Source of the DNA: Spartobacteria bacterium
Lineage (GTDB): Bacteria > Verrucomicrobiota > Verrucomicrobiia > Chthoniobacterales > UBA10450
Direction of reading: 5' to 3'
Assembly (NCBI GenBank): GCA_003134785.1
Contig: PLCN01000011.1
Span: 1-64,000 of the forward strand
DNA length: 64,000 nt
Under the pieces are notes generated by a model, which did no database searches, was not told the origin of the DNA, and saw only the letters and a list, made by a program, of their open reading frames with translations. The translations under genes and the position numbers were made by a program. Positions within the stretch are counted from its first letter, which is position 1; the number at the start of each line of letters is the position of its first letter. This document shows, piece by piece, positions 8,928-52,510 of the stretch.

Positions 8928-11921
8928 CTATTGCAGCGCGAAAACTTCTACGACGGCTATGCCGGTCGCGTTGTTCACGCCGCGGACGATAGCTGTATAT
9001 TGCGCGCCGCCGGCCGGTAACGCCGCGATGATAGCCGACTCGAAGTCGTTACTCGGTGGGATGGTGCTGTCGATGATCGCCTGCTTGTTCGGGCTATCCA
9101 CCCAGTTATCGTTCGAGTCCACTAACCCACCATTCCCGTCGCGCAGCTCTAGAATAGGATCTTCCAGTTTCCCAGGCACGCTCAACGATGGACCTAACGC
9201 TTCCACGATCACCTTTTGCGGTGCCTGGCCAACCACGATCGTTCCCGCGATCAAGACGTCGTCCCCCGTTTGCACCAGGCCGCGAGTCGAGATGTTCGCC
9301 AGTTTCGAATCCACCGTGCGATCCAGGTCGTATGCTTCCACCACTCCAATGCCTGTCCCATTATTTACTCCACGCACGATAGCAGTGTAACCCGAGCCAT
9401 TAGCCGGCAGCGTCGCCACGATGGCCGATTCCAAATCGTTAGTAGGTGCAATGGTGCTATCGATGATCGCCTGCTTGTTCGGGCTATCCACCCAGTTGTC
9501 GTTCGAATCAAGGAGCGCGCCGGAAGAATCATGCAACTCCAGGATCGGATCGGCCAGGTCATCCGCAAAAGGCAGGGAAGGACCGATCGCGCGGATCATT
9601 ACCTTCTTCGACTGTGTCCCAGTGACGATGAAGCCGCCGATGAGAACGTTATCGCCTGTCTCCACCCGGAGCCGCGTCGAAATATTAGCGAGCGTCGTAG
9701 GGGTGGCCGTAGGTGTAGGTGTAGGTGTAGGTGTAGGGATGGGCGTAGGCGCTTGCACTTCAAAGGCGCCGATGTCGCCGGCATCGCCGTCGCCGTTGGG
9801 GACGTTAGGTAGATCAATCGGGCGAGCGAAGCCGCGTTGATCGGTGGTCGAGCGGAAGGATAAACCTTGGTCTATGGCAAAGCTGCCGGATAACAGTGCG
9901 TGCGTCTGGGTGGGGCCGCCATTGTCTTGCAGTGGACCTAGATTCAACTGGGTTGCTGTGACGCCGACTTGGTCGCCGGTTGTCGGCGTGATAGTCGCGC
10001 CGGAGGCGTTGCCGATGAGGTTAAAGCCTTGCGACGTAAGCGGGCCATTCACATCAGGACCGCTCGGGGAGTTATTCAGGGCAATGATGGTGTTCCCCAA
10101 GACCACCGAGCCTTTGTTTACATTGCGAAGGCCGCCGCCCAAGTCTCCCGAGTTGCCGGAGATGGTGCTGTCGGTGAGATTGACCGTGCCTATATTGGTG
10201 AAAATGCCGCCGCCGCTGTCGCTGGTGCTGGACGGTCCGTTTGCGGTGTTGCCGGAGATCGTGCTGTTGGTGAGATTGACCGTGCCGCCATTGTTAAAAA
10301 TGCCGCCGCCGCTGCCAGCAACGATGCTGTTGACTGTGTTGCCCGACATCGTGCTGTTAGTAAGCGTCACTGTGCCACTGTTGAAAATGCCGCCGCCATT
10401 GGTGGCAGTGTTGCCCGAGATGGTGACGCTGGTGAGAGTCAGCGTGCCAGGGTTATTAATGCCGCCGCCGCTGCTGATAACTCCATTGGCAATCGTCAGG
10501 CCGGAGATGGCGGCGTTGACACTGGCGGATGCGATATTGAAGATGCGGAAATTACCGGCAGAGGCGCTGCGCTGCACGCTCAACAGATTCGCGCCGGGGC
10601 CGCTGATCGTCATTGCCTTATTAATCAACAACTCATTGCTCGTTAGGTTGATCGCGCCCCTGACGTTCGCAGCAAAAGTAATCGTGCTGCCCCCGCAGGC
10701 ATTCGCGATCACGTCACGCAACGAAGCTGCGTCGGCATCACTGTTGTTCTTGACCACCAGGTTTATCTCGCTGCAGCCGGCTAGCTGGTCGGGCTGCACT
10801 TCGTAGGCGCCAATGTCGCTGCCGTCGCCGCCCGTGGCATTAGCGATAACGGGAGTGTCAATCGGCCGGGTAAAGCCGCGTTGATCGGTGGATGAACCGC
10901 TGGAGTCGCCTTTGTCTATGGCTTTGCTGCCGGAAAGCAGTGCTTGTGTCTTGGTTGGCCCGCCATTGTCTTGCAGCGAGTCGAGCAGCGGATCAAGAGG
11001 CACGGCGACCGTTCCTGTCTGGTCAGTGGCCGCGGTGAAGCCCGTGCTCCCGTCGGTCTTGCCGATGAGGTTGAATCCTTGTGAAGTGAACGATCCAGAA
11101 ACATCGGGACCAATCGGGGCTGTGTTCAGGGCAATGATCGTGTTCTTCGCTGTCACGGTGCCGGTCTGGTTGAAAATGCCGCCGCCACCAGAGCTGTTGC
11201 TTCCCGTGTTGCCTGAGATGGTGCTGCTGGTGATGGTCACCGGGCCGCTGCCCTGCTTGTAAATGCCGCCGCCGTAGAGTCCGGAGTTTCCGAAGATGGT
11301 GCTGTTGGTAATAGTCACCGGGCCGCCGCCAAAGTGGCAAATGCCGCCGCCGCCATTGCCTGCCGAGTTGCCGGAGATGGTACTGTTGATGATCGCCAAA
11401 CTTAGATTGCCGCTACTGTTGCAAATACCACCGCCGGTATCGGCCGAGTTGCCGGAGATGATGCTATTGGTGATAGTCAACGTGCCACGGTTGAAAATGC
11501 CGCCGCCGCTGCTGCCGACAGCAGCAGCGCTTCCATTGGAAATCGTCAAGCCGGAGATGGTGGCGCTGGCGTTGGATGCAATATTGAAGATGCGGAACTG
11601 AGGTGTGCCGCTTGCGGTGCTGCGCTGCACGGTCAAGAGATTCGCGCCGGGGCCGTTGATCGTCAGACCGCTGTTAATCGGCAACTCGCCGTTCGTCAGG
11701 TTGATCGCACTGTTCGCTGGCAGCGAAAAGGTAATCGTATCAAAATTCCCGGCGTTTAGAATGGCATCACGCAACGTACACTTGCTCGCCGTGCACGTCC
11801 CCGTCCCGTCATCGGCGGTGCTGTTTACCGTGAGGGTCGCGGCCTCAACCGAAGCCGCCAGGAGCAGGGCCAAGATGAACCCAGCGAACGAAATTCGATA
11901 CCGGCAGCGTGATTTTTTCAT
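8928..11921 (-). CDS. Double beta-helix (CSLREA) exported protein with clade A module
   Basis: The 997-residue product starts at the ATG at 11921, preceded by GAAGGTGCTTGTTT and followed by a clear signal peptide (RISFAGFILALLLAASVEA). An upstream in-frame extension would overlap the divergent regulator's coding sequence and was rejected. Two beta-helix passengers stand in tandem, each opening with a CSLREA-like or related motif (CTLRDAILNAG; SLRDVIANACG) and ending with NGGPT.TQALLSGS.AID.G....TDQRGF.RPID...DIGA.EVQ. A short Pro-Thr linker (GTAGGT hexamers near 9705-9740) leads to the clade A module ending VVEVFALQ. The gene is divergent from the wHTH/TPR regulator, with 201 bases between the two starts. 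Confidence 0.88.
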   Translation of the reverse strand: MKKSRCRYRISFAGFILALLLAASVEAATLTVNSTADDGTGTCTASKCTLRDAILNAGNFDTITFSLPANSAINLTNGELPINSGLTINGPGANLLTVQRSTASGTPQFRIFNIASNASATISGLTISNGSAAAVGSSGGGIFNRGTLTITNSIISGNSADTGGGICNSSGNLSLAIINSTISGNSAGNGGGGICHFGGGPVTITNSTIFGNSGLYGGGIYKQGSGPVTITSSTISGNTGSNSSGGGGIFNQTGTVTAKNTIIALNTAPIGPDVSGSFTSQGFNLIGKTDGSTGFTAATDQTGTVAVPLDPLLDSLQDNGGPTKTQALLSGSKAIDKGDSSGSSTDQRGFTRPIDTPVIANATGGDGSDIGAYEVQPDQLAGCSEINLVVKNNSDADAASLRDVIANACGGSTITFAANVRGAINLTSNELLINKAMTISGPGANLLSVQRSASAGNFRIFNIASASVNAAISGLTIANGVISSGGGINNPGTLTLTSVTISGNTATNGGGIFNSGTVTLTNSTMSGNTVNSIVAGSGGGIFNNGGTVNLTNSTISGNTANGPSSTSDSGGGIFTNIGTVNLTDSTISGNSGDLGGGLRNVNKGSVVLGNTIIALNNSPSGPDVNGPLTSQGFNLIGNASGATITPTTGDQVGVTATQLNLGPLQDNGGPTQTHALLSGSFAIDQGLSFRSTTDQRGFARPIDLPNVPNGDGDAGDIGAFEVQAPTPIPTPTPTPTPTATPTTLANISTRLRVETGDNVLIGGFIVTGTQSKKVMIRAIGPSLPFADDLADPILELHDSSGALLDSNDNWVDSPNKQAIIDSTIAPTNDLESAIVATLPANGSGYTAIVRGVNNGTGIGVVEAYDLDRTVDSKLANISTRGLVQTGDDVLIAGTIVVGQAPQKVIVEALGPSLSVPGKLEDPILELRDGNGGLVDSNDNWVDSPNKQAIIDSTIPPSNDFESAIIAALPAGGAQYTAIVRGVNNATGIAVVEVFALQ

Positions 11922-14433: not shown

Positions 14434-14494
14434 TTAGTTCAGCGCGAAAACTTCTACGACCGCTATGTCCGTCGTTCCATTCACGCCGCGGACC
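14434..14494 (-). pseudogene. Displaced clade A tail fragment downstream of the 14527 gene
   Basis: Read on the minus strand this stretch encodes VRGVNGTTDIAVVEVFALN and a stop, the last 20 or so codons of a clade A module. It lies after the stop codon of the 14527-18501 gene, separated from it only by a hairpin. It has no start and looks like the former 3' end of the gene, left behind when a new end was acquired. Confidence 0.7.
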
Positions 14495-14497
14495 GCT

Positions 14498-14525
14498 GTA
14501 GAGGGCTTGTGTCAAGCGCCTCTAC
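14498..14525. repeat. Single-arm GTAGAGG..CCTCTAC palindrome
   Basis: gtagagggcttgtgtcaagc followed by gcctctac is an imperfect palindrome directly after the stop codon of the gene at 14527. It is a shortened copy, with one base missing, of the larger nested palindrome at 18767-18827 and 27579-27639. It could act as a terminator hairpin. Confidence 0.65.
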
Positions 14526-14526
14526 A

Positions 14527-18708: not shown

Positions 18709-18763
18709 TCAGGCGAAAAATTCGACGACCGCTGCACCGGTAGTTCCGTTCACGCCGCGGACC
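18709..18763 (-). pseudogene. Displaced clade A tail fragment downstream of the 18829 gene
   Basis: The minus strand encodes VRGVNGTTGAAVVEFFA and a stop, a slightly degraded module end. It lies after the stop codon of the 18829-23505 gene, beyond the nested palindrome. The arrangement is the same as at 14434-14525 and 27515-27639. Most of the remaining 18502-18828 spacer (about 18502-18708) shows no feature I recognise. Confidence 0.7.
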
Positions 18764-18766
18764 GCT

Positions 18767-18827
18767 GTAGAGGCGCTTGTGTCAAGCGCCTAACCGAACA
18801 CCAGGCGCTTGGCACAAGCGCCTCTAC
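18767..18827. repeat. Nested 25-bp inverted repeat (GTAGAGGCGCTTGTG family)
   Basis: Two 25-base arms, gtagaggcgcttgtgtcaag+cgcct and its near-perfect inverted copy, flank the spacer aaccgaacacc with one mismatch. Each arm is itself palindromic (GGCGCTT/AAGCGCC), so the element can fold as one long or two short hairpins. It begins one base after the stop codon of the 18829 gene on the minus strand. Nearly the same element is at 27579-27639. Confidence 0.8.
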
Positions 18828-18828
18828 A

Positions 18829-27392: not shown

Positions 27393-27526
27393 CTCCCTTT
27401 CCAAAGGGATTCCGGAGACCGTGCTGCACGAAATCGCGATCTAACCAAGATTGCAGGCAGGTGTAAATGTTCTTTTCCCATGATCGCGTCCAGGCAATGC
27501 CGTTCGATTCAAGTTCAGTTCAGCGC
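27393..27526. repeat. About 130-bp spacer repeat, copy 2
   Basis: This is the near-identical partner of 23581-23713 and contains the same candidate promoter and the same tail-end sequence (agttcagttcagcgc). Confidence 0.75.
27439..27467 (-). promoter_or_regulatory. Candidate promoter, copy 3 (for the 23704-27366 gene)
   Basis: TTTACA (27467-27462) and TTAGAT (27444-27439) on the minus strand have a 17-base spacer and lie about 75 bases ahead of the ATG at 27366. The -35 box differs from TTGACA at one position; the -10 box is a poor match. Confidence 0.45.
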
Positions 27527-27575
27527 AAAGACTTCGACGACGGCTACACCGGTCGTCCCATTCACGCCGCGGACC
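27515..27575 (-). pseudogene. Displaced clade A tail fragment downstream of the 27641 gene
   Basis: The minus strand encodes VRGVNGTTGVAVVEVFALN and a stop, an intact module end without its gene. It lies beyond the palindrome that follows the stop codon of the 27641-31300 gene. Confidence 0.7.
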
Positions 27576-27578
27576 GCT

Positions 27579-27639
27579 GCAGAGGCGCTTGGGTCAAGCG
27601 CCTAACCGAACACCAGGCGCTTGGCACAAGCTCCTCTAC
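27579..27639. repeat. Nested inverted repeat, second full copy
   Basis: gcagaggcgcttgggtcaag+cgcct, the spacer aaccgaacacc and an inverted arm ending ctcctctac. It differs from 18767-18827 at a few positions and also starts one base after a stop codon. Confidence 0.78.
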
Positions 27640-27640
27640 A

Positions 27641-38866: not shown

Positions 38867-38901
38867 GAACACGGGTGCTTCATTGAGAAGGCAACAAACG
38901 A

Positions 38902-38976
38902 TTTGTGGCCATTCACAGGTGTACTGTCCCAAATATGCCGCGCGGTTACGCGGAAAGATCGAGATTTCGGCCCTTG
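38902..38976 (-). repeat. Conserved 65-75 bp intergenic element, copy 1
   Basis: The element reads (plus strand) tttgtggccattcacaggtg then tactgtcccaaatatgccgc, gcggttacgcggaaagatcg and agatttcgg. It has a CCGCG/CGCGG hairpin. It lies between the stop of the 38977 gene and the start of the 35210 gene, ending 35 bases before that ATG. Other copies are at 42175, 49484 and 52448. Confidence 0.75.
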
Positions 38977-40041
38977 CTACTGGAGGAAGTAAACCTGGAC
39001 AACACCTATGCCAGTGGTCTCCGGTTTGCCTCGCACCTGGGCGGTGTATTGGCCGGGTTGAAGAGTGGTAACAAAAGCCGCTTCCAGATCGTTGGTCGGT
39101 TGCAGACCAGTAGCTTCGAGTTCCGCTTGCTGGCTGCTGCCATCGGTCCGGATTTTCCAATCATCGTTCTCCACCACGAGGGCGCCGTTCCCGTCCGTTA
39201 GTTGAAGAGTGGTATCCGCCAATGCGTTGGTAATGCCAAAGGCGCTTAGAGAAGGTCCTATCGCGCGCACCACCGTCTGGACTGGTCCATTCTGGATAAT
39301 GAAACCGGCGATCATGAGTTTATCGCCGGGTTGAATAAGACCGCGGGTGGCGATGTTAGCCAGCTGGGCGGGAGACGAGGCGCTGAGATCAAAGGCATCC
39401 ACCACCCCGGTGCCAACGGTGTTCCCCAGGCCACGCACGACCGCGGTGTAACTGCCCGGAGCCAGGTTGGCGATAATCGCCGACTCGAGGTCATTACTCG
39501 GTGCGAGTCCACTGGCGGCAATGTCCGCGGATTGATCTGCCGTGATAAGGCCGCCTGGCTGGGTAACTCTCCAGTCGTCGTTGCTCGCAACAATGGCGTT
39601 GCTGGCATCATGGATCTCCAGGGTAGGGTTAGCTAACGCGTCCGTTATGCCAAAAGGAAGGAGCGACGGGCCAATCGCGCGGACGATGATTTTCTTGGCC
39701 GAGCCGGCCGGGCCTTGCACGATGAAACCTTCGATCAGGACATTATCATCCGTGCCGACCGGGAGGCGGGTAGAGACGTTGGCCACCAAACCAGGTATGG
39801 CTGTAAACCAGAAGCCGACCTGCATGGAAAACTGTCCGCTGCTGAGATTTTCTCCCGCGGCGGCCTGGCCCATGGTCGCGTCCATGGTGACGTTTCCGCC
39901 GTCCGTGCTAGACCCGCCGCCGCCTGCGATCACAGAGGAGGTAAGATCAAGACCACGGCCTTTCTCTGGAATTAAAGCGAGCGCAAGCGCGAACGAGGCA
40001 ATAAGAAAGCGGCCAGAACGTTTTGCGAATGGCGTCTTCAT
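38977..40041 (-). CDS. 354-residue exported protein: short GFW domain plus clade B module
   Basis: A signal peptide (RFLIASFALALALIPEKGRG) is followed by a 45-residue segment, SSVIAGGGGSSTDGGNVTMD...GQAAAGENLSSGQFSMQVGFW, of a type common in secreted proteins of this phylum. The rest is the clade B module (VANVSTRLPVGTDDNVLIEG ... VVQVYFLQ). It is therefore almost a free-standing module. It follows the tail-fibre-like gene at 40209 with a 167-base gap and shares its orientation. The same gene pair is present at 49559-52121. Confidence 0.88.
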   Translation of the reverse strand: MKTPFAKRSGRFLIASFALALALIPEKGRGLDLTSSVIAGGGGSSTDGGNVTMDATMGQAAAGENLSSGQFSMQVGFWFTAIPGLVANVSTRLPVGTDDNVLIEGFIVQGPAGSAKKIIVRAIGPSLLPFGITDALANPTLEIHDASNAIVASNDDWRVTQPGGLITADQSADIAASGLAPSNDLESAIIANLAPGSYTAVVRGLGNTVGTGVVDAFDLSASSPAQLANIATRGLIQPGDKLMIAGFIIQNGPVQTVVRAIGPSLSAFGITNALADTTLQLTDGNGALVVENDDWKIRTDGSSQQAELEATGLQPTNDLEAAFVTTLQPGQYTAQVRGKPETTGIGVVQVYFLQ

Positions 40042-40208
40042 GTTAGTTCAGAAATGGTGAAGTCCCGACCAATAAACAAAGTGTGTCCTACCTCCTGCAG
40101 ATCTCTCACTCCGGGTACTCCAACATGATGGTTAGGACGGCCGCTTGTCATTTCTGTTCCTTCTGCAGCGCCTTTGCTTTCAGCCATCTTTCTTCAGCGA
40201 CGTTTATG

Positions 40209-41894
40209 TCATCGCGGTCCGACGGCGATGAAAAGGAAGGGAATTTGCACCCCATTGCCATCAAAAGTGTCTATTATTACGATCTTGACTTGCTTACTCC
40301 GATCGCAGCCGCAATTTGGGTCGATCTGGGCCACAATGATGTCGGAACTTCTCTCCGCCGTGGCCGTAACTGCCGGGGTTCCACTGAACGGCGTATTAAA
40401 CGTGATGTAAAAAACGCCGTCGTTCGTGCTTGAAACCGTGAAGCCGGATCCAGCGGCAATGTTCCCATTACCGGTGATGTTGCCACGAATGATGCGCAGA
40501 TTCTCTTCTCCAGCCGGCGCGAAGAACTGGCCCGTGCTGCCGAGTTTTACATCGCCTCGCACATCCAACTTGGACTGCGGCGAATCGGTGCCGATGCCCA
40601 CATTGCCGGAGCCGTTGATTATGACCCGATCTGGCTCGCCGCCTCCCGGCGCTGCGGTGCGAAAGAGGATGTTGGTACCTTGCGCGGCACCGGAGCTCGA
40701 ATGGCCGATAATCTGGAGAGTGTCGCCAAATCCATCAAGCCGAAACGAGTTGTTCGAATCGCCGTTATCGTTAGCCATGAAAAGGGCATTTGCGCCTATG
40801 CTCGGATCGCTGGTGAGACCGATAAACACGTTGCCGCGCACGTCGAGCGGCGCCAGCGGCGCAGTTGTGCCGATGCCGACGTTCGTGCTCACGCCGGCAC
40901 CATTGACACCCTTAATGGCGCCAAGCACGAGAGAGTTATTCCGATCGACCTCGGAACGAATGCCAATGGCGGTCGAGTCGCTGATGCCGGGGGGCACCTT
41001 GGCGAGGAAGCCCAGTGCCGTATCGTCGTTGCCAGTGGAATTGATACCGGCATTGTATCCGACAAACGTGTTGTTGAGGCCCGTCGTGTTGCTGAATCCC
41101 GCCCCAGATCCGAAGAAAGCGTTATTCGAGCCGGCAGTATTAGTACCGCCCGCCTCACCTCCAAAAAAGGCGTTAGATGAACCCGTTGTGTTTTGGCTCC
41201 CTGACTGATTGCCGACGAAAGAATTACTCTGACCGGAGTTGCTGGTCCCGGCCCCTAAGCCCAGAAACAGATTGGAGGTGTCCGCACTCAAGAGGCGATT
41301 ACCGCCCAGGTTATATTGTGTCGTTGCGTCGAAAATATTTGCAGTGCCGTTGCCTGCGATGGTGAAGTTCCCTGTCGCGTTCGTCGCAAAGGTCGCGTTT
41401 GTGGCATTGGTAGCGTTGGTAGCGTTGGTCGCCGTGGTCGCATTAAGGCTGAAAAGCGCATAAGGCGTCGGCGTGATCGGTTGCCGGGGATCGAGGATGG
41501 TTAAGGGGTTGCCGCTACCCGCAGGCGTGACTCCTACTTCCAGGAATCGGTCGGCGCCCGAAAACGCGGCGGCGGTGAAATCCAACTGCACGGTGAAGAC
41601 CCCGCTTGTTACTTTCACCCCAGGGAGAGTTATGGTGGAGCCAATCTGTGTCCCGGTGCCTGCGGCAGGCGTGTCGAAGAGCTTGAGCTGCATGTCGTAG
41701 CTGCCATTCGCCGGCGTCCCGCTGTCATTGAGCCGCCCTTGAAAAGTGAAGCTGCTGGTTTGCGCCTGCGCTCCCGCAACAAAAAAGAAGAGCGCGACAG
41801 AGCAAGCGAGCAGAAGTTTATGAAATCCAAGAATTGCTTTCCCAACGCGCGCTTCGGGTTGAATCACACCCTGGCGCTTCATTTCATTTGACAT
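40209..41894 (-). CDS. Tail-fibre-like exported protein with NAT-repeat stalk
   Basis: The 561-residue product starts at the ATG at 41894, five bases after GGGAGG, with a signal peptide (LLLACSVALFFFVAGAQAQ). The N-terminal domain (FTFQGRLNDSGTPANGSYDM ... PRQPITPTPYALFSLNA) is of a type often found ahead of fibre domains. A short NAT repeat follows (TATNATNATNATNATFATNA), then left-handed-helix-like GxxxFxG turns (SNNAFFGSGAGFSNTTGLNN) and GIGT...LDVRGNVFIG motifs typical of phage and surface fibres. It ends with a C-terminal domain (IPFLFIAVGPR) without the shared module. It is likely a trimeric surface fibre; this is inferred from fold signatures. Confidence 0.82.
   Translation of the reverse strand: MSNEMKRQGVIQPEARVGKAILGFHKLLLACSVALFFFVAGAQAQTSSFTFQGRLNDSGTPANGSYDMQLKLFDTPAAGTGTQIGSTITLPGVKVTSGVFTVQLDFTAAAFSGADRFLEVGVTPAGSGNPLTILDPRQPITPTPYALFSLNATTATNATNATNATNATFATNATGNFTIAGNGTANIFDATTQYNLGGNRLLSADTSNLFLGLGAGTSNSGQSNSFVGNQSGSQNTTGSSNAFFGGEAGGTNTAGSNNAFFGSGAGFSNTTGLNNTFVGYNAGINSTGNDDTALGFLAKVPPGISDSTAIGIRSEVDRNNSLVLGAIKGVNGAGVSTNVGIGTTAPLAPLDVRGNVFIGLTSDPSIGANALFMANDNGDSNNSFRLDGFGDTLQIIGHSSSGAAQGTNILFRTAAPGGGEPDRVIINGSGNVGIGTDSPQSKLDVRGDVKLGSTGQFFAPAGEENLRIIRGNITGNGNIAAGSGFTVSSTNDGVFYITFNTPFSGTPAVTATAERSSDIIVAQIDPNCGCDRSKQVKIVIIDTFDGNGVQIPFLFIAVGPR
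41376..41450 (-). repeat. Short tandem repeat coding the NAT stalk (561-residue fibre)
   Basis: Near-repeated nine-base units (such as gtagcgttg, gtggcattg) code for Asn-Ala-Thr triplets. Unit loss or gain would keep the frame and change stalk length. Confidence 0.6.
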
Positions 41895-42174
41895 ATCTAC
41901 CTCCCAAAGTTCCTGAGTCCCCCGCGGTCTTGTAAGAAGAAAATCAGGCGGTGGATTGGAGACGCCTGAGACGGACTGATTTGTGATGTCTGATTTTCAC
42001 TTGCGTCATGAGAAAATTAACCGCGGAGGGACGTAGAGAACGTGGAACGGGAAAGAATGTTTCGTCCTGTTTCTTTGGCGATCTCTGCGCTCTCCACGGT
42101 GAAGATAAAGGGACGAAGGAAGGCGGAACGGTGCCGGGTTTATCCGTTTTAGTCTTCCGATGAGGGCAGAGGTC
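41895..42174 (-). promoter_or_regulatory. Upstream region of the fibre gene, duplicated at 52122-52447
   Basis: No gene is present. The region shares most of its sequence with the spacer upstream of the second fibre gene, including ttaaccgcggagg near 42017, gatctctgcgctctcc near 42080 and the stretch ggcggaacggtgccgggttt near 42123. Conservation suggests it carries the promoter or simply moved with the duplicated unit. I could not pick out a convincing -35/-10 pair. Confidence 0.5.
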
Positions 42175-42243
42175 ATTTGCGGCCATTCACAGGTGTACTG
42201 TCCCAAATATGCCGCGTGGTTACGCGGAAAGATCAAGATTTCG
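42175..42243 (-). repeat. Conserved 65-75 bp intergenic element, copy 2
   Basis: Same sequence as 38902-38976 with a few changes (tttgcggccattcacaggtg; gccgcgtggttacgcggaaa). It lies 280 bases ahead of the fibre gene start at 41894. Confidence 0.75.
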
Positions 42244-42281
42244 ATGGCCACGCCCGCATTTGTCAGGCGGGGCCGGTCATT

Positions 42282-42341
42282 ACGTCATCGCCCGTATCGA
42301 CAAAGCCGCGCGTCGAGATATTCGCCAGCTTCGAATCGACC
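42282..42341 (-). pseudogene. Clade A module fragment stranded behind a clade C gene
   Basis: The minus strand encodes [20 protein letters not shown], the start of the second half of a clade A module. It lies directly downstream of the stop codon of the 42345 gene, whose own module is clade C. It has no start and is a relic of an earlier or neighbouring module A. Confidence 0.7.
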
Positions 42342-42344
42342 GGC

Positions 42345-45300
42345 CTATGGCAGGGCAAACACTTCGATGAGTCCTACGCCGGTCCCGCCGTTCACCCCTT
42401 GCGCGATCGCAGTGTAAGCTCCTGGCGCCAAGGTGGCAATTATCGCGGATTCCGCCGAATTACTCGGCGCCAGCCCGCTGTTCTGGATGGCGGCGGACTG
42501 GTCGCCGGTAATTATCCCGCCGATCTGCGTCGTCTGCCAATCATCGTTCATCGCTAACGTGCCATTGGCGTCGTGAAGCTCGAGCTGTGGATTAGTGAGA
42601 GCGTTATTGACTCCAAAGGGGATGAGTGATGGACCGGTGGCGCGGATAAGCGCCTTCGCGGCATTACCGGCGACAATGAAACCGCCGATCATGACGTTAT
42701 CTCCGGTCTGGATAAATCCCCGGGTGCTGATATTCGCGAGGATCGCTCCGTTGTTGGGACTTAAGTCATATACTTCCGCGGTCGCTACGCCCTGGGTGCC
42801 GCCCACTCCCTGCACGATCGCGGTGTACTGTCCGGCGGGCAGCGTCGCTATGATCGCCGGCTCCGCCGGATCGGACGGCGCGACGCCGCTGTTCTGGATC
42901 GCAGCGACTTGATCGGAGGTAATCACTCCGCCGAGTTGAGTGGTTTGCCAGTTATCGTTAGTCCCGATGGTGTTATTCGCATCGTGAAGTTCCAGCCGCG
43001 GATCGCCCAAGGCTCCCGGGACACCGAATGACGACAGCGAAGGACCCGCGGAACGAATGAGCACTGTCTTGGACGCGTTCCCCTGAATGATAAAGCCGGC
43101 GAACAAGACGTTGTCCCCAGTGCCCACCTGCAGCCGCGTCGAAACGTTACCAAGAGTGCCTGACGCAGGTGTGGCTGTAGGTGTCGGTGTAGGAGTAGGT
43201 AGAGGAACCTGCAATTCAAAGGCGCCGATGTCACTGCCATCCGCATTACCTGCGTTTTTGATATCCGCGAAGTCAACCGGGCGCGGAAGTCCTCGTTGAT
43301 CTGTGGGACTCGGATTTGGAACGTAGACGGAGCTGTTATCGCCTTGATCAATGGCCACACTGCCAGAAAGCAGTGCGTGCGTGAACGTAGGGCCGCCGTT
43401 GTCTTGCAGCGGACCAAGGTTTAATTGCGCAGCACTGACGCCGGACTGGTCCGAAATTCCAGGGCCACTGATGGCCGCGGGGGGAGAGGCATCGCCAAAG
43501 ATGTTAAACCCTTCCGACTGCAATGGCCCTTTTACATCCGTGCCGCTGGGCGCGGTGTTCAGCGCGATGATGGTGTTACCCACCTGGAAATTCGCTCCAT
43601 TCTCGCCCAGCACACCGCCGCCATTGTCCGATTTGTTCGCAGAAATCGTGCTGCTATAAATTTTCACTGTCCCGGTGTTACTATAAATGCCTCCGCCGTG
43701 ATCGGTCGTGCCTCCGGTACTTACGGCCGAGTTCCCGGAAATGGTACTATTAGTCACGGTTATTGTGCCGCCGAAATTGAAGATGCCGCCGCCACTCCCC
43801 GGCACGGACGAGTCGATTTTATTGCCGGAGATGGTGGTATTAGAGACGGTCAATGCGCCGCTGGAATAAACGCCGCCGCCGTTGCCTCCAATCGCACTAT
43901 TCAGTGAGACGGTGTCATTGCTGAGAGTCAGCGTCCCCGCGTTTAGAATCCCTCCGCCTTTAATCCCGGAAGTATCGCTGGGACCCGCGCCGTTGCTGAT
44001 CGTCAATCCGGAGATTGCGTCTCTGAAGTTCCCGGTGATGTGAAAGATACGGAAGTTAGTGGCTGCACTAGCGCTGCGCTGAACGGTAAGCAGGTTCGCC
44101 CCGGGACCGTTGATAATAATGTTTTTGTTCAAGACTAACTCACCACTCGTCAGGTTAATCGCTCCGCGCACATTGTCGGCGAAGGTGATCGTGCTACCTC
44201 CGCAGGCGCCTGCTATGACGGCGCGCAGTGAGCCTGTGCCTGTGTCGTTTGCGTTGTTGACGATAACAGATGAACACCCGGCGGCCAGCTCGTCGGACTG
44301 GACTTCGTAAGCACCGATATCACTTCCGTCGTCCGCATTGGCAACCGGCGTGTCGACCGGTCGGGTGAATCCGCGTTGATCGAGGGTCGAGCCGCCAGAG
44401 CTACCCTTATCGATCGCGGGACTGTTCGTGAGTAACGCTTGCGTCTGCGTCGGTCCGCCATTGTCGTGGAGCGGGTCGAGCCGCGGGTCGATCGGGTTGC
44501 CGGGCGTGCCAATCTGGTCGCCCGTAGTGGCCTTCATGTTGGTATTCTGATTGTTGCCGATGAGGTTGTAACCCTGCGAAGTGACCGTGCCCACGTTGTC
44601 AATATCGGGGCCAGTCGTGGCCGTATTCTTAGCCACGATGGTGCTGAACAGCTTACAGGTGCCGCCGGAGCTATTGGAAATTCCACCGCCATTACTGTTC
44701 GCAGCGGTCGTGGTATTACCGGAAATCGTGCTGTTCGCGATCGTTACGCCGACTGTAGCGTCTGTGCTGGTATTAAAGATCGCGCCGCCGGTTGACGCAG
44801 CGGTATTGCCCGAGATCGTACAATTGTTAATCGTTAGCTTGCTAGCCCTGAACGAACCATTTTCAATGCCTCCACCGGTGGGCGCCGAATTACCGGAGAT
44901 TGTGCTGTTGGTTATCGTAGCAACGGCTGCATCTCCGGAGTTACATACACCGCCTCCGCGGGCCCCGGTGTTACCTGAGATTGTGCTGCTGTTCACATTC
45001 AGGGTTCCGCTATTGAAGATCGCGCCCCCCTCCGTGTTACCCACGTTGCCGGAGATCGTGCAGCCTGTAAGGCTCAGGGTGCCGGCATTGTGAATTGCGC
45101 CGGCGCTTTCGCCCAGGTCATCGACCCCATTCGAAATCGTTACTCCCGAGATGTCGACTATCCGTCCCGCGGCGATATCGAGAATGCGAAAATGAGCGGC
45201 CGTCGAGCTGCGTGCTATGGTGAGCGAGCTCGCGCCGGGGCCGGTGATAACGACGTTGTGGTTGAGCGGCAAGGTACCACCGGTAAGCACAATGGTGCTA

Positions 45301-45518
45301 TTTGCCGGCAGCGAAAAACTGATCTGCTCGGTCGGTATGGCATCATGCAAATTCAGAAATGCATCACGCAACGTACATTTCGTCGGCGTGCAGGCTCCGT
45401 TTCCGTCATCGGCGGTGCTGTTAACCGTCAGGGTGTCAGCCTGCGCGGAAACCGCGGCCAGCAAAAAGACCAGGGCGCCGGCAAGCCAGAAATGATTCCG
45501 ATAGTGTCTCTCGTTCAT
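42345..45518 (-). CDS. Double beta-helix (CSLREA) exported protein with clade C module
   Basis: The 1057-residue product starts at the ATG at 45518, with AGGGAGA ten bases upstream and a signal peptide ([18 protein letters not shown]). Two beta-helix passengers in tandem ([22 protein letters not shown]) parallel the organisation of the 8928-11921 protein. The 5' leaders of the two genes also share GTTCGTTCG and a GCTT..TATG start. Here the short Pro-Thr linker (43170-43200) leads to a clade C module ([20 protein letters not shown] ... [11 protein letters not shown]) instead of clade A. So two genes with similar passengers and leaders carry different C-termini, and a module A fragment remains behind the stop codon. 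Confidence 0.88.
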
Positions 45519-45703: not shown

Positions 45704-48700
45704 CTATGGCAGCGCGTAAACTTCGACGAGTCCCACGCCGGTCCCGTCGTTCACCCCTTGCGCGATCGCAGTGTAAGCTCCCGGCGCCAGGGTGGCGATG
45801 ATCGCTGACTCCGCCGGGTCGCCCGGAGCCAGTCCGCTATTCTGGATGGCGGCGGACTGGTCGCTGGTAATGATCCCGCCCAGTTGCGTGGTCGGCCAAT
45901 CATCGTTCCCCGCTAACGCGCCATTGGCGTCATGGAGCTCGAGCTGCGGGTTGGCCAGAGCGTTATTGATCCCGAAGGGGATTAAGGAGGGGCCGGTGGC
46001 GCGGATAAGTACTGTCGAGGCCTGGTCCACGACAATAAAGCCGCCGATCATGACGTTGTCTCCTGTCTGGATAAATCCTCGCGTACTGATGTTGGCGAGG
46101 GTGGCTCCGTTATTCGGGCTTAAGTCGTACACTTCCACGGTCGCTACGCCTTGCTTGCCGCCCACTCCCTGCACGATCGCGGTGTAACCTCCCGCAGGCA
46201 GCGTCGCTATGATGGCCGGCTCCGCCGGATCGAGTGGGGCCGCGCCGCTGTTTTGGATCGCAGCGACTTGATCGGAGGTAATCACTCCGCCGAGCTGGGT
46301 CGTCTGCCAATCGTCGTTGGTCCCGATGGTGCTGTTGGCATCGTGGAGTTCCAGCTGCGGATCGCTCAACGCGCCCGGGAGACCAAATGATGTGAGCGAA
46401 GGACCCGCGGACCGGATGAGCACGGTCTTGGAGGCGCTCCCCTGGATGATGAAGCCGGCAAATAAGACGTTGTTCCCAGTGCCTACTTGAAGCCGCGTCG
46501 AAATGTTACCCAAGCTGCCGGACGATGGTGTAGGTGTAGGTGTAGGAGTAGAGATAGGCGTGGCGGTAGGCACGGGTGTGGGATTAGGAGTAGGTGTGGT
46601 GGTAGGTACAGGTGTGGGATTAGGAATAGGTGTAGCGGTAGGTATGGGTGTGGGGTTAGGAGTAGGCGTAGTGGTTGGAGCAGGTGTCGGTGTTGGTGTC
46701 GGCAGCTGCCCAAAATTTTGGACTTCAATCGCGCCGATGTCGCTGCCATCGCCTCCGGTCGCGTTAGCGATACTTGGATTGTCCCGTATCCTGGTCAATC
46801 CGCGTTGATCGGTTGTTAGACCGAAGGACTTTCCGGCGTCGATCGCCGGGCTGTTTGATGTCAGGTTAAAGGTGTCGGTCGGTCCGCCATTGTTCGACGG
46901 CGGCCCGAGCACGCCCGCGTTCAAGACCGAGGCATCGGTGCCTTTGATGTCTCCGATGGCGGTAAAGCCCGTGCTATGGTCGGCGGTACCTAACAAGTTG
47001 TAACCACCAGAGGTGAATGCGCCGTCAACATCCGCGCCGGCGCCGCCGTTCGCGGTGTTGTTCGCGCTGATCGTGTCCCTCACGATCGCGGCGCCTCCGC
47101 TAAGGTTTGCGATCCCGCCACTGGCTGGACCTGGCGAACCGTTGCCACCGGGGCCGGTGCCTCCACTGCTGTTGCCGCCGGCATTGCTGCTTATCGTGCA
47201 AGCCGTCATCGTGATCTGCCCCGCGTTGCAGATAGCTCCTCCATGTGCCGCGCCACCGTTACCACCGGTGCTGCCGCCGTTGCCGCCGTTACCACCGCGA
47301 GCGATGTTCCCGAAGAAGGAACAACTGGTGAGCGTCAGAGAATGGGCTGCCTCGTTGAAGACCGCACCGCCCTGGCCCGCGCCGCCATTGCCGCCGGGCC
47401 CTCTGGTTATGCCGGCTCCGGCGTTACCGCCCGTAGCCGTATTTCCGGAAAACGTGCAGCGATTCAGGATGAGAGTGCCGGCGCTATAAATCGCGCCGCC
47501 GTTTCCCTTGGCGCCAGAGCCGCCTGGGCCGGAGCCGTTGCCGCCAGTTGCGCTATTTCCGGTGAACATGCAGTCATTCACGGTCAAGGAACTTGCGTTA
47601 AGAATCCCGCCACCCGTGCCTGCTTGCCCGGTCGCTCCCGCCGCAAATCCGTCTTGAATCGTTAGGCCAGAAATCACGCTGGTGCCGCTGGAGAAATTGA
47701 AAACGCGGACTGTGCCATTCCCGCTGACAGCCAGCGCCCGCGCACCAGGTCCAACGATGGTAACGGAATTGCTGATCGTGAGGCCGCCTAGAGTCGCCTG
47801 TAAAGTGATAACGCCCGTCACCTGGTTCTTGAAGCTAACGGTAGATCCAGAAGTAGCGTTGGCCGCATTGATAGCTTCGCGGAGCGCGCAATCGGCGAAG
47901 CTACAGGCCCCATCGTCGTGATCGTCAGTCGTTGTGACCACAAAGGCGGGCCCAGTCTGGATGGCATCCATTTCGACCGCGCCGATATCGCTGCCGTCGC
48001 CCCCACTCGCGTTGGATATGCTGGGAATATCAACTGGCCGCGGCGATCCACGTTGATCGGCGGTCAGGCTGAAGCTCTTGCCTTTGTCCCAGGCCGGACT
48101 GCCGGGAAGCAAAGCCATCGTTTGCGTTGGGCCGCCGTTGTCTTGCAGCGGGCCGAGCTTGGGATCGGTATTGATCTGGTCACCGGCAGCGGTGAGGAGA
48201 CCGTTGGCATTGTCACTGCTTAAGTTGTAACCATGCGACGTGACGCTCGCGCCCGGGCCAGTACTGATAAGATTAGCGCCGGGCGTAGTGTTCGCGCTGT
48301 AGAGGATCGTATCTTCAAGGATCAAGAGACCCCGGCCGTTATTTGTCCCCTGGTTGTAGATACCTCCGCCATTGGGGGCGCTATTGTCGGAAAGCGTGCT
48401 CGTGGTAACGGTGGCGTTCCCCGTATAACCATTACCGTAGCCCTGGTTGTAGATGCCACCCCCAATGGCCGCACTATTCCCGACCAAGGTAGAGTTACGC
48501 ACAGTAAGAGATCCGCTATCATTATAAACCGCGCCGCCGTTCGCTTGGGCAGTATTCTTGGCAAAGGTACAACCGACGATCGTGATCGTACTGGTTTGGC
48601 CCCAGATCGCGCCGCCTACATTACCGCTGTTTTCGTAGAAATAACTATTCTGTACCGTAACAGATGCATTCTCGAAAAAGTTGCCAATCGCTCCACCTTG

Positions 48701-49330
48701 ACCGCCGGTGTTATTGCTAAAAGTGCAGCCATTGATCATTAACTGCGCCGTCGCTGCATTTTCGATGGCGCCCCCTGGGCCGTTGCTTGTGAAAGTGCAG
48801 GAGGTAAGTGTCGCGGGGCCCTCGTTGGTAATAGCGCCCGAACTGTTATTGCTGAAAACGCAGTCGGTGGCAGTCAGCGGGCCATCACTGAAAATCGCCC
48901 CGTATTGGCTGGCATTCGCGCTGAAACTACAGGACGCTAGGGTCAGGTTGCCATGATTTAGGATGCCCCCGGGCTGAAAATCGCCCCCCTGTCCGTTCGT
49001 GATTGAGATACCTGAAATGCTCACGGTAAGACCGCTATTGATGACAAAAAGAAGGACGGTGCCGCTATCCCGTGTCACGGTCAGTTGAGCTTGTCCTGGA
49101 CCGCTTATCGTAACGTTCTTGGTAATCGTCAGAGAACTGTCCAGCTTGATTTGTCCGGTGACGGAGAACTGGATCGTGTCTCCCGCCGCCGCAGCAGCAA
49201 GCGTGTCGCGCAATGTCCCACCGCCGCTATCATTGAGACTGGTGACTGTCCGCGTCGCTGCTTGCGCAGCGCCCGGTCCAATCGCTAGACTGAACACCGC
49301 GATAGCCAGGATAAGCGGGCCCTGTTTCAT
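45704..49330 (-). CDS. Beta-helix (CSLREA) exported protein with long Pro-Thr linker and clade C module
   Basis: The 1208-residue product starts at the ATG at 49330 (GGGCGGGG nearby) with a signal peptide ([20 protein letters not shown]). A beta-helix with variants such as [20 protein letters not shown] is followed by a second one opened by a clear CSLREA motif ([11 protein letters not shown]) with Gly-rich turns. The Q-type ending leads to the longest Pro-Thr linker of the window, about 60 residues coded at 46523-46704. The clade C module ends [10 protein letters not shown]. Just upstream lies a decayed start of a fibre gene. The next gene in the same direction, 42345-45518, begins 185 bases further on and carries the same module clade. 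Confidence 0.88.
46523..46704 (-). repeat. GTAGGT-type hexamer array coding a long Pro-Thr linker
   Basis: Units of gtaggt, gtgggatta and relatives repeat for about 180 bases and code for PTPTPNPTP on the minus strand. Shorter arrays of the same type precede the module in most of the other giant genes (for example 3171-3240, 9705-9745, 15300-15375, 28425-28495, 36040-36130). Confidence 0.75.
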
Positions 49331-49339
49331 GAATATCCC

Positions 49340-49460
49340 CGCCCTTCAGGAGCAAAGCTAAAAACCCCAAAAAGGAGGCGAGCAGAGGTTTGTGAAACCG
49401 AAGCATGCCTTTTCCCAAAGCGCGCTTGGGGTTGAATCTCCCCAGGCCGTTTCGTTTCAG
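49340..49460 (-). pseudogene. Decayed 5' end of a fibre gene ahead of the 45704 gene
   Basis: The frame on the minus strand reads LKRNGLGRFNPKRALGKGML and RFHKPLLASFLGFL, a clear relative of the fibre proteins' MKRQGVIQPEARVGKAML and EFHKLLLACVLGLL. It stops being related shortly before the ATG at 49330. It lacks a start codon at the equivalent place and is a relic. Confidence 0.65.
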
Positions 49461-49483
49461 TTTTTCGGTGAAGGCGGAGTGTG

Positions 49484-49552
49484 TTTGTGGCCATTCACAG
49501 GGGTACTGTCCCAAATATGCCGCGCGGTTACGCGGAAAGATCGAGATTTCGG
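49484..49552 (-). repeat. Conserved 65-75 bp intergenic element, copy 3
   Basis: Nearly identical to 38902-38976. As there, it follows the stop codon of a 354-residue gene within a few bases and precedes a giant gene. Confidence 0.75.
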
Positions 49553-49558
49553 CTCTTG

Positions 49559-50623
49559 CTACTGGAGGAAGTAAACCTGGACCACGCCGATGCCAGTGGT
49601 CTCGGGCTTGCCTCGCACCTGGGCGGTATATTGGCCGGGTTGAAGAGTGGTAACAAAAGCCGCTTCCAGATCGTTAGTCGGTTGCAGACCAGTAGCTTCG
49701 AGTTCTGCCTGCTGACTACTGCCGTCGGTGCGGACCTTCCAGTCGTCGTTCTCGACCACGATGGCGCCATTCCCGTCCCTTAGCTGAAGAGTGGTATCGG
49801 CCAGCGCATTGGTAATGCCAAAGGCGCTCAAGGAAGGTCCTATCGCGCGCACCACGGCTCTGACCGGCCCGTTCTGGATGATGAAACCCGCGATCATGAG
49901 TTTATCGCCGGGTTGAATAAGACCTCGGGTAGCGATGTTGGCAAGCTGGGCGGGAGACGAGGCGCTGAGATCGAAGGCGTCCACCACTCCTGTGCCAACG
50001 GTGTTGCCCAAGCCGCGCACGACCGCGGTGTAACTGCCTGGAGTAAGGTTCGCGATAATCGCCGACTCGAGGTCATTACTCGGTGCGAACCCGCTCGCGG
50101 CGATCTCCGCGGATTGATCGGCGATGATAAGGCCGCCTGGCTGAGTGACTCTCCAGTCGTCATTGCTCGCAACGATGGCGTTGCTGGCATCATGGATCTC
50201 CAGGGTGGGGTTAGCTAGTGCGTCCGTTATTCCAAAGGGAACGAGCGAAGGGCCAATCGCGCGCACGATGATTTTCTTGGTCGAGCCGGCCGGGCCTTGG
50301 ACGATGAAACCCTCGATCAGGACATTATCATCCGTGCCAACCGGGAGGCGAGTAGAGACGTTAGCGACAAGGCCAGGTATAGCCGTAAACCAGAAGCCGA
50401 CCTGCATGGAAAACTGTCCGCCGCTGAGAATTGTCCCCGCGGCGGCCTGGCCAATGGTTGCGTCCAGCGTCAGGTTTCCCGCGTCCATGCTCGTTCCGCC
50501 GCCGCCGGCAATCACGCCGGTAGAAAGATCAAGGCCGTTGCTTCTCTGTGCAATCAAAGCAAGCGCCAGCGCGAGCGATGCCAGAAGAAACCGGCAGCGA
50601 TCCGCTGTAGTTGAGTTCTTCAT
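49559..50623 (-). CDS. 354-residue exported protein, second copy (GFW domain plus clade B module)
   Basis: This is a close paralogue of 38977-40041 of the same length. It has a signal peptide (RFLLASLALALALIAQRSNG), the GGGG...GQAAAGTILSGGQFSMQVGFW segment and a clade B module ending VVQVYFLQ. The ATG at 50623 lies 49 bases after the stop of the second fibre gene, with AAGGAG in that gap. The pair is therefore likely an operon. Confidence 0.88.
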   Translation of the reverse strand: MKNSTTADRCRFLLASLALALALIAQRSNGLDLSTGVIAGGGGTSMDAGNLTLDATIGQAAAGTILSGGQFSMQVGFWFTAIPGLVANVSTRLPVGTDDNVLIEGFIVQGPAGSTKKIIVRAIGPSLVPFGITDALANPTLEIHDASNAIVASNDDWRVTQPGGLIIADQSAEIAASGFAPSNDLESAIIANLTPGSYTAVVRGLGNTVGTGVVDAFDLSASSPAQLANIATRGLIQPGDKLMIAGFIIQNGPVRAVVRAIGPSLSAFGITNALADTTLQLRDGNGAIVVENDDWKVRTDGSSQQAELEATGLQPTNDLEAAFVTTLQPGQYTAQVRGKPETTGIGVVQVYFLQ

Positions 50624-50672
50624 ATTAGTTCACCGATGCTTTCAGCCGTGGCTCCTTGATTGCGTGTCTGTC

Positions 50673-52121
50673 TCATCGCGGTCCGATAACGATGAAATGG
50701 AAAGCACCCTCGCGATTGGCACATGCAAGGGCGGAAGAATCGCTAACACCACACAAGCTTATCCCGACAGAGCTTGAGCTCGCTCCTGTAGTCAGGGCGA
50801 CTACAACGCCGGTGGGGCCAAAAAAGGGCGTTACTGTTATGATTGGGGCGGCTGGGAAAGGGGTGTCAAAGGTGATCGTGTAAGTAATGGCTCCACCACC
50901 ATCAACGTTGCGAGTCGCCTGAAAACCGACTCCCCTGGAAACAGTTCCGTCCGGATTGATCACGCCGCGAACAATGCGCAGATTCTCTTCCCCGCCCGGC
51001 GCGAAAAGCTGGCCCGTGCTGCCCAGCTTTACATCGCCTCTGACATCCAGTTTTGTTTGCGGCGAATCAGTGCCGACACCCACATTCCCAACCGCATCGA
51101 TCTTAACCTGGTCCACTTCGCCTGCCCCTTTCGCGGCGGTGCGAAAGATGATGCCGGTATCGGAGGCAGCGCCGGGATTTGAGTGACCGATGATGAAGAG
51201 ATTGTTGCCCGCCGCATCGAGGCGGAACGAGTTGTGCGGATCGCCGCCATCATTAGCGAGGAAAAGAGAATTCCCTCCCGGAGAAGCGGGATCGGCCGTC
51301 AGGCCGATGAACACGTTCCCGCGCACGTCGAGCGGCGCGAGCGGCACTGTCGTGCCAATTCCGATTTTGCTGCCGGCCGTCAGAGTTCCACTGACCTGGC
51401 CGTTGCCGGCGATGTTGAAGTTCGCCGGCTGCGGCGAGACCGTGTTCTGAATGTAGTCAGTAGAGCCGGGTGTCGGTGGCCGGGCGTCAGCGAGACGAGA
51501 ATCGCTCGTCAAGACATACTGGCTTGCAGCTATCCCATTTAGCTCGGTGGAATTCGTCGCCGTGGTTGCGGTCGTGGCGTTCGTGGCGTTAGTGGCGTTA
51601 GTGGCGTTAGTGGCATTAGTAGCGTTAGTGGCATTAGTAGCGTTAGCAGCGGTCGTCGCTGTGGTCGCATTAAGGCTGTAAAGCGCATAAGGCGCCGGCG
51701 TGATCGGCTGCCGCGGATCGAGGATGGTCAACGGATTGCCGCTACCCGCAGGCGTGACTCCCACCTCCACAAACCGATCGGCGCCGGGAAACGCGGCGGC
51801 GGTGAAATCCAACTGCACGGTGAAGACTCCGCTTGTTACCTTTACGCCAGGGAGGGTGACAGTCGAGCCGATTTGCGTGCCGGTGCCTGAAGCGGCCGTA
51901 TCGAAGAGCTTGAGTTGCATATCGTAATTGCCATTGGCCGGTACACCGCTGTCATTGAGCCGTCCTTGAAAAGTGAAGGCGCTGCTTTGCGCCCGCGCTC
52001 CGGGGGCAAAAAATAAAAGCCCTAGAACACAGGCGAGCAGCAGTTTATGGAACTCGAGCATTGCCTTGCCAACGCGCGCTTCCGGTTGAATCACACCCTG
52101 ACGCTTCATTTTATTTAACAT
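50673..52121 (-). CDS. Tail-fibre-like exported protein with longer NAT-repeat stalk
   Basis: The 482-residue product starts at the ATG at 52121 (GGAGG-CAGAT spacing) with a signal peptide (LLLACVLGLLFFAPGARAQ). It shares the N-terminal FTFQGRLNDSG...PRQPITPAPYALYSLNA domain with the 40209 protein. It then has about eight uninterrupted NAT triplets, a GIGTTVPLAPLDVRGNVFIG fibre segment and a different C-terminal domain ending FHFIVIGPR. The fibre turns rich in SNNAFFG found in the 40209 protein are absent. The different heads on a common stem resemble phage fibre variation. Confidence 0.82.
   Translation of the reverse strand: MLNKMKRQGVIQPEARVGKAMLEFHKLLLACVLGLLFFAPGARAQSSAFTFQGRLNDSGVPANGNYDMQLKLFDTAASGTGTQIGSTVTLPGVKVTSGVFTVQLDFTAAAFPGADRFVEVGVTPAGSGNPLTILDPRQPITPAPYALYSLNATTATTAANATNATNATNATNATNATNATNATTATTATNSTELNGIAASQYVLTSDSRLADARPPTPGSTDYIQNTVSPQPANFNIAGNGQVSGTLTAGSKIGIGTTVPLAPLDVRGNVFIGLTADPASPGGNSLFLANDGGDPHNSFRLDAAGNNLFIIGHSNPGAASDTGIIFRTAAKGAGEVDQVKIDAVGNVGVGTDSPQTKLDVRGDVKLGSTGQLFAPGGEENLRIVRGVINPDGTVSRGVGFQATRNVDGGGAITYTITFDTPFPAAPIITVTPFFGPTGVVVALTTGASSSSVGISLCGVSDSSALACANREGAFHFIVIGPR
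51557..51670 (-). repeat. Nine-base tandem repeat coding the NAT stalk (482-residue fibre)
   Basis: Units of gttagtggc and gttagtagc repeat in near-perfect tandem and code for Asn-Ala-Thr. The array is longer than at 41376-41450, so unit number has changed between the two paralogues without loss of frame. Confidence 0.75.
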
Positions 52122-52447
52122 ATCTGCCTCCTAAATTTCCCCTGGGTTTCCCGCGGTCTTGGTAAGAAGAGAGTCTGGTAATGGATTGGAGACGCCTGCG
52201 ACGGACTGATTTCTGATCCCTGATCCCTGATTCTCACTCGCATCATGAGAAATTAACCGCGGAGGACGCAGAGAGGGCGGAGTTGGTGAGAGTTTTTTCG
52301 TCCTGTTTCCCCGGCGATCTCTGCGCTCTCCGAGGGGAAGATAAACGGGACGAAGGAAGGCGGAACGGTGCCGGGTTTATCCGCAAGGCTGACCGGTTCG
52401 ACGCAAAGCCGTCAGCCGTTTCAGCCTTCCGGTGAGGGCAGAGGTCG
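52122..52447 (-). promoter_or_regulatory. Upstream region of the second fibre gene
   Basis: This is homologous to 41895-42174 over most of its length, with no gene seen. The remaining spacer from 52511 to 52701, beyond the conserved element, shows nothing I recognise. Confidence 0.5.
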
Positions 52448-52510
52448 TTTGTGGCCATTCACCGGGGTACTGTCCGAAATCTGGCGCGAGGTTACGCGGA
52501 AAATTTGAAA
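52448..52510 (-). repeat. Conserved 65-75 bp intergenic element, copy 4 (diverged)
   Basis: tttgtggccattcaccgggg, tactgtccgaaatctggcgc and gaggttacgcggaaaa match the other copies with several changes. It lies about 325 bases ahead of the fibre gene start. Confidence 0.65.

Follow-up and report, generated by a model that had tools for sequence, protein, structure and literature searches.

The 42345 gene of this Spartobacteria genome ends in a pair of clade C modules, and directly behind its stop codon lies the head of a second module of clade A type. We read this stranded fragment as the scar of a C-terminal displacement, in which a clade C pair would have been laid over the resident clade A pair in an ancestor of the gene, and give this reading a probability of about 0.55. 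The window, i.e., the whole stretch of DNA analysed, covers the initial 64 kb of contig C2 in a genome of 4.39 Mb; of the genomes used for comparison, G004 is a relative in the same genus and G007 a sister species.

Most long minus-strand genes of the window carry two tandem C-terminal modules of ~130 residues, and the genome holds at least 150 module copies (150 of 262 candidate places were scored, giving 150 matches). Sorting 69 genes by their terminal module gave 23 of clade A, 9 of B, 8 of C, 4 of C′, 2 of C2 and 23 others; these labels are motif rules of the present analysis and agree with the order in a FastTree tree of the last modules. The module pair had no match in a PDB sequence search, and PPC (PF04151) matched weakly in 4 of 17 module pairs (best E 0.0021), the 42345 pair not being among them. 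The structure model of the pair is a tandem beta-sandwich (pLDDT 72) with the tandem collagen-binding domain of ColG as its top Foldseek match (E 6e-8, TM only ~0.3). The modules may plausibly act in anchoring or binding at the C-terminus. The gene and its downstream region are organized as follows.

42345..45518, minus strand: the 42345 gene, a choice-of-anchor Q double beta-helix passenger with a C-terminal pair C (reading frame listed from 45569, likely start 45518)
43155..43212, minus strand: Pro/Thr-rich linker (PTPTPTP) at the boundary of passenger and module pair, the site of clade change between related genes
42762..43151, minus strand: module 1 of pair C
42348..42737, minus strand: module 2 (terminal) of pair C
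42272..42342, minus strand: stranded head of a clade A-type second module (~70 nt), beginning at the inter-module linker and out of frame with the 42345 gene
42244..42271, minus strand: short stretch (28 nt) between fragment and leader
42144..42243, minus strand: repeated 5′ leader (100 nt) with a hairpin, which ends the scar and precedes the next gene

The gene product scored 142 bits against NF041518, the NCBIfam choice-of-anchor Q model (cut-off 25), and the passengers of genes 8928 and 45704 likewise match this model. A Pfam search of 42345 gave no match at 0.01, and choice_anch_Q and CSLREA were its only NCBIfam matches; nothing that would make it an Rhs/CdiA polymorphic toxin (RHS repeats, or a toxin tip with an immunity gene) was found. 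The C-terminus is clade C, as the earlier note on this DNA had stated, with both modules belonging to pair C.

The TAG stop of the gene occupies 42347..42345, and the bases after it (GCCGGTCGATTCGAAGCTGGCGAATATCTCGACGCGCGGC...) code for 26 residues in a frame other than that of the gene. The homology starts with the inter-module linker, 2 nt past the stop. When searched against its own genome, the fragment matched second-module heads of clade A at 5548-5608 and 27969-28029 (61 nt at 89%, E 9.4e-16). Against module heads by clade, its score was highest with A (88), followed by other types (67), C (56) and B (43), the maximum in 40 shuffles being 23-24. A clade A-type second-module remnant directly behind the stop, the central claim of the earlier note, is thus confirmed; the limits given there (42282-42341) were right as to place and slightly too narrow, with a gapped alignment carrying the homology on to 42272. 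Very close agreement with the window's clade A is confined to the first ~36 nt, and the remainder (GFVDTGDDVM) resembles other module-2 types too. Compared with the head of gene 5220, the fragment shows 9 differences in 64 nt, distributed 3/0/6 over codon positions 1/2/3 (counted by hand from the printed alignment), with no stop and no frameshift, and the residues that differ (F, D and M) recur in intact modules elsewhere. Given this pattern, the fragment probably diverged while it was still coding and was stranded late, nine changes being suggestive rather than firm.

The 3′ side of the scar is formed by a leader of 70-100 nt, 86-96% identical between copies, which stands ahead of several cluster genes and occurs in G004 as well. 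Further minus-strand copies are located at 49453-49551, 38901-38969 and 52416-52502, behind 49559, 38977 and 52702, respectively. The leader carries a short hairpin (CCGCGTAACC.CGCGG) and GGGACAGTAC..CCTGTGAATGG, found no match in an Rfam search, and may be a shared promoter or regulator site. The sequence acaaatgcgggcgtggccatcgaaatcttgatc behind the fragment was considered as a module tail (GVAIEIL) and rejected, as its gaaatc... part belongs to the leader that is repeated at three other places of the window, and the form GTGGCCATCGAAATC serves as leader behind a G004 gene. Two similar two-gene units of the cluster, 38977-41894 and 49559-52121, are apparently duplicated within it, each comprising a leader, a gene lacking Pfam and NCBIfam matches, and a gene of 354 aa in which hardly any passenger precedes pair B. 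At the edge of the surface-protein cluster, 52702-55560 encodes a serine/threonine kinase with TPR repeats (Pfam Pkinase E 3e-54).

Two further genes of the window bear on the origin of the fragment.

8928..11921, minus strand: paralogue 8928, with a passenger homologous to that of 42345 and pair A
45704..49330, minus strand: neighbour gene 45704, with pair C, a passenger close to that of a pair A gene of G007, and no recognisable scar behind it

Alignment of the 42345 and 8928 passengers, the comparison proposed in the earlier note, showed them to be homologous (60% over 613 aa; 47-50% over 846-872 aa in another comparison), and 8928 does carry clade A. The 'related 5′ leader' attributed to 8928 came down to one 17-nt match just above chance (score 24, which none of 500 shuffles reached; maximum 23). 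In a tree of 13 passengers, 42345 with its pair C adjoins two pair A genes, 8928 and one from G002 (support 95 for those two together), and 45704, also with pair C, adjoins the G007 gene with pair A (support 100). Apart from G013, whose contig stops short of the modules, the nearer part of the tree contains no further gene that could carry C on the tails seen.

The aligned sequences show that C-terminal module pairs of clades A, B and C are exchanged under conserved N-terminal parts. The protein of 45704 (pair C) is 87% identical over 880 aa to that of the G007 gene with pair A, 31325 (pair B) matches a G004 gene with pair C at 76% over 1002 aa, and 27641 (pair A) matches a G004 gene with pair B at 82% over 910 aa. 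At the DNA level, L086_p3648 of G004 (pair C) and a G007 gene with pair B share 88.6% over 1376 nt. The clade changes at the Pro/Thr linker in all four protein pairs aligned. The idea that A was replaced by C at 42345 is in keeping with these exchanges, with the tree neighbours that carry A and with the A-type fragment; what moved would have been a pair, not the one module that the earlier note had in mind.

Gene 45704, for which orthology makes the swap clearest, lacks a scar, and 42345, which bears the window's clearest clade-switch scar, lacks an orthologue. Behind the stops of 45704 and its G007 counterpart no shared 3′ flank was found, so in-place replacement is not demonstrable for 45704. 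For 42345, a search of 58 genomes (its own and 57 relatives) gave no close orthologue, the best match in another genome being ~60%, and the swap therefore cannot be tied to this gene. Passenger searches with L085, L086_p3648 and L086_p7546 returned one useful orthologue (L221, pair B), and in two of the clade C genes with orthologues the relative carries B, not A. Among the passengers searched, which excluded those of L084_m2709 and L087_m2513, no gene combined a clade-switch scar with a close orthologue of the scar's type.

The scar at 42345 is not a special case. Up to 400 nt behind the stops of 152 terminal modules with at least 60 nt downstream, taken from the window as well as from loci in several genomes, were searched for pieces of intact modules, using the opposite strand and 1,520 dinucleotide shuffles as controls. 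Module remnants were present on the same strand in 14 of 152 cases at E 1e-5, compared to 0/152 on the opposite strand and 0/1,520 shuffles; only this strict level is usable, because the controls also matched at E 0.001 (16, 3 and 2 for same strand, opposite strand and shuffles, respectively) and at E 0.01 (20, 7 and 30). The remnants measure ~30-320 nt, and 13 of the 14 scars are tails or longer pieces, with 42345 as the sole pure head. Half of the eight clade C genes have a clade A remnant behind them: a head at 42345, a head and a tail with the inside lost at L085, and tails at L084_2709 and L086_7546. Scars are commoner behind C genes (4/8, vs 10/144 for the others) with a Fisher p of 0.0026, an optimistic value since paralogues are not independent. 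A B head suspected behind L086_p3648, whose G007 orthologue has pair B, did not score above shuffles, nor did heads behind L084_6358, L087_2513 and 45704.

The L085 locus of G004 shows the same junction as 42345, an A-type linker directly behind the C stop, under an unrelated passenger, and the 42345 scar may for this reason predate the swap in that gene. Location of the swap at the 42345 gene itself, as the earlier note had it, is accordingly supported only in part. The A head could instead be the inherited 3′ flank of a C cassette, i.e., one old A-to-C event would have created a unit of C pair, stop and A remnant that later moved into 42345, which would also account for the clade A tails behind L085, L084_2709 and L086_7546, all in G004 and with unrelated passengers. 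However, the fragment at 42345 shows little decay and has its nearest matches in the clade A heads of its own cluster, which is unexpected for an old neutral remnant, and among the eight C genes only 42345 and L085 have heads clearly over the shuffle maximum. We consider such an inherited flank unlikely.

Survival of a third module fits the data less well. If 42345 once had three in-frame modules (1, C, A), a stop or frameshift after the second would have cut off the third; arrays of more than two modules exist in the source genome (C22:10030-11643), and the A head retains its linker. Internal modules, however, end in YDL plus linker, whereas the second modules of clade C have a terminal-type ALP-stop end in seven of eight genes (KIP-stop in the eighth), and the tabulated genes include no C module with an in-frame A module after it. 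A truncated three-module gene is very improbable on these grounds.

Scars of another kind occur at three clade A genes, where a REP-like palindrome (TGTAGAGGCGCTTG...) separates the stop from a further clade A tail of 50-60 nt.

27521..27574, minus strand: stranded clade A tail behind gene 27641, after the palindrome at 27578-27640
18713..18762, minus strand: stranded clade A tail behind gene 18829, after the palindrome at 18766-18828
14434..14493, minus strand: stranded clade A tail behind gene 14527, after a shorter palindrome at ~14496-14526

The middle of module 2 of 27641 resembles 23704 (144/150, vs 114/150 for 18829), the sequence just behind the stop is 18829-like (72/75), and from the scar onward it is 23704-like again. 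The pattern fits insertion of an end with its palindrome into the resident's own tail, with the likeness of the 27641 and 23704 flanks being weaker than it looks because both precede paralogous next genes. In G006 (L090, after 1656), a different palindrome is found at the same position. At ~2083-2230 of L206 (G004 C13), the current C′ end is followed by a C-type tail and then by an A tail, which on our reading of the printed sequence would be a layered record of successive tail replacements; the blast match covers the A tail. A further locus, L186 (G000 C22:253150-254600), has a 172-nt module-end repeat, 98% identical, directly behind its own stop, which is either a very recent duplication or an assembly error.

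The fragment could also be all that is left of a separate module gene deleted between 42345 and 40209, an origin that the earlier note had itself raised against its reading. The cluster is a tandem array, in which deletions are expected, and the next gene's leader lies close to the end of the fragment. Passengers are ~3 times the length of the module pair, so after deletions their scraps would be expected to be at least as common as those of modules; in 50 downstream regions, however, no interior passenger remnant was recognised outside intact reading frames, and module remnants were found. The six matches that fell outside tabulated reading frames were, by reading, a leader copy (42345), module tails overlapping a long reading frame (L086, L085), next-gene starts missing from the table (L087, L088) and one 27-nt match that could not be placed (L084). 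At 27641, moreover, the resident gene resembles 23704 to either side of the inserted end. A deleted neighbour is thus disfavoured, and we regard it as quite unlikely.

The displacement that we favour may have proceeded as follows. The ancestor of 42345 would have carried a clade A module pair, into which a clade C pair with its own stop codon recombined, the left junction lying in the Pro/Thr linker or module 1 and the right junction at the inter-module linker of the resident pair. This would have stranded the resident second module downstream of the new stop, where it was neither in frame nor used; later loss would have shortened it from the 3′ end, up to the present start of the next gene's 5′ leader. 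Both the order of these events and the recombination route are our suggestion, as is the placing of the swap in the 42345 gene rather than in a donor. A more speculative and rather doubtful extension is that the stranded head serves as a ready-made right homology arm, formed by the clade A linker (VDSKLAN) downstream of the stop, while the repeated Pro/Thr linker would be the left arm. If this were true, ordinary homologous recombination could carry the C pair as a cassette into any gene of clade A, and each such transfer would strand the resident's second module.

The name of the choice-of-anchor family implies variable C-terminal anchors. In the NF041518-matching genes 42345, 8928 and 45704, it is the clade within a single module family that varies, inside one genus, and the exchange leaves scars in the DNA. 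A literature search on choice-of-anchor proteins in Verrucomicrobiota found no paper, and the literature searched held no description of how tails are assigned to passengers in such surface-protein families.

By analogy, the process in these choice-of-anchor Q surface proteins appears to work like the C-terminal displacement published for rhs tips (Jackson et al. 2009, PMC2935791): C-termini of different type occur on a conserved core (45704 and its G007 counterpart), and same-strand remnants lie behind stops. Both systems combine a conserved N-terminal part with an exchangeable C-terminus, core and tip evolving separately, and both keep displaced older C-terminal pieces downstream of the current stop. 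Unlike the rhs tips, the tails here are homologous surface modules rather than toxins and have no immunity genes, and the remnants are scraps, not dissociated tips with core repeats. For the effector-immunity modules of the Vibrio cholerae T6SS, sequential displacement with one homologous and one illegitimate junction has been proposed (PMC5361080). The layered remnants behind the current 3′ end in that system resemble those of the module genes, and its junction scheme fits them; the pieces retained there are immunity genes and may be useful, whereas the remnants here look useless. Salmonella orphan Rhs toxin fragments (PMC3967940) likewise lie as displaced C-terminal pieces behind the main gene and are long enough for recombining back and expression, for which the 42345 fragment is too short.

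Large families of huge surface proteins fill the genomes of soil Verrucomicrobiota. In a family other than toxins, scars behind stop codons document tail exchange directly in the DNA and, where they are layered, its order as well, so that the direction and rate of anchor and module switching become measurable from genomes alone.
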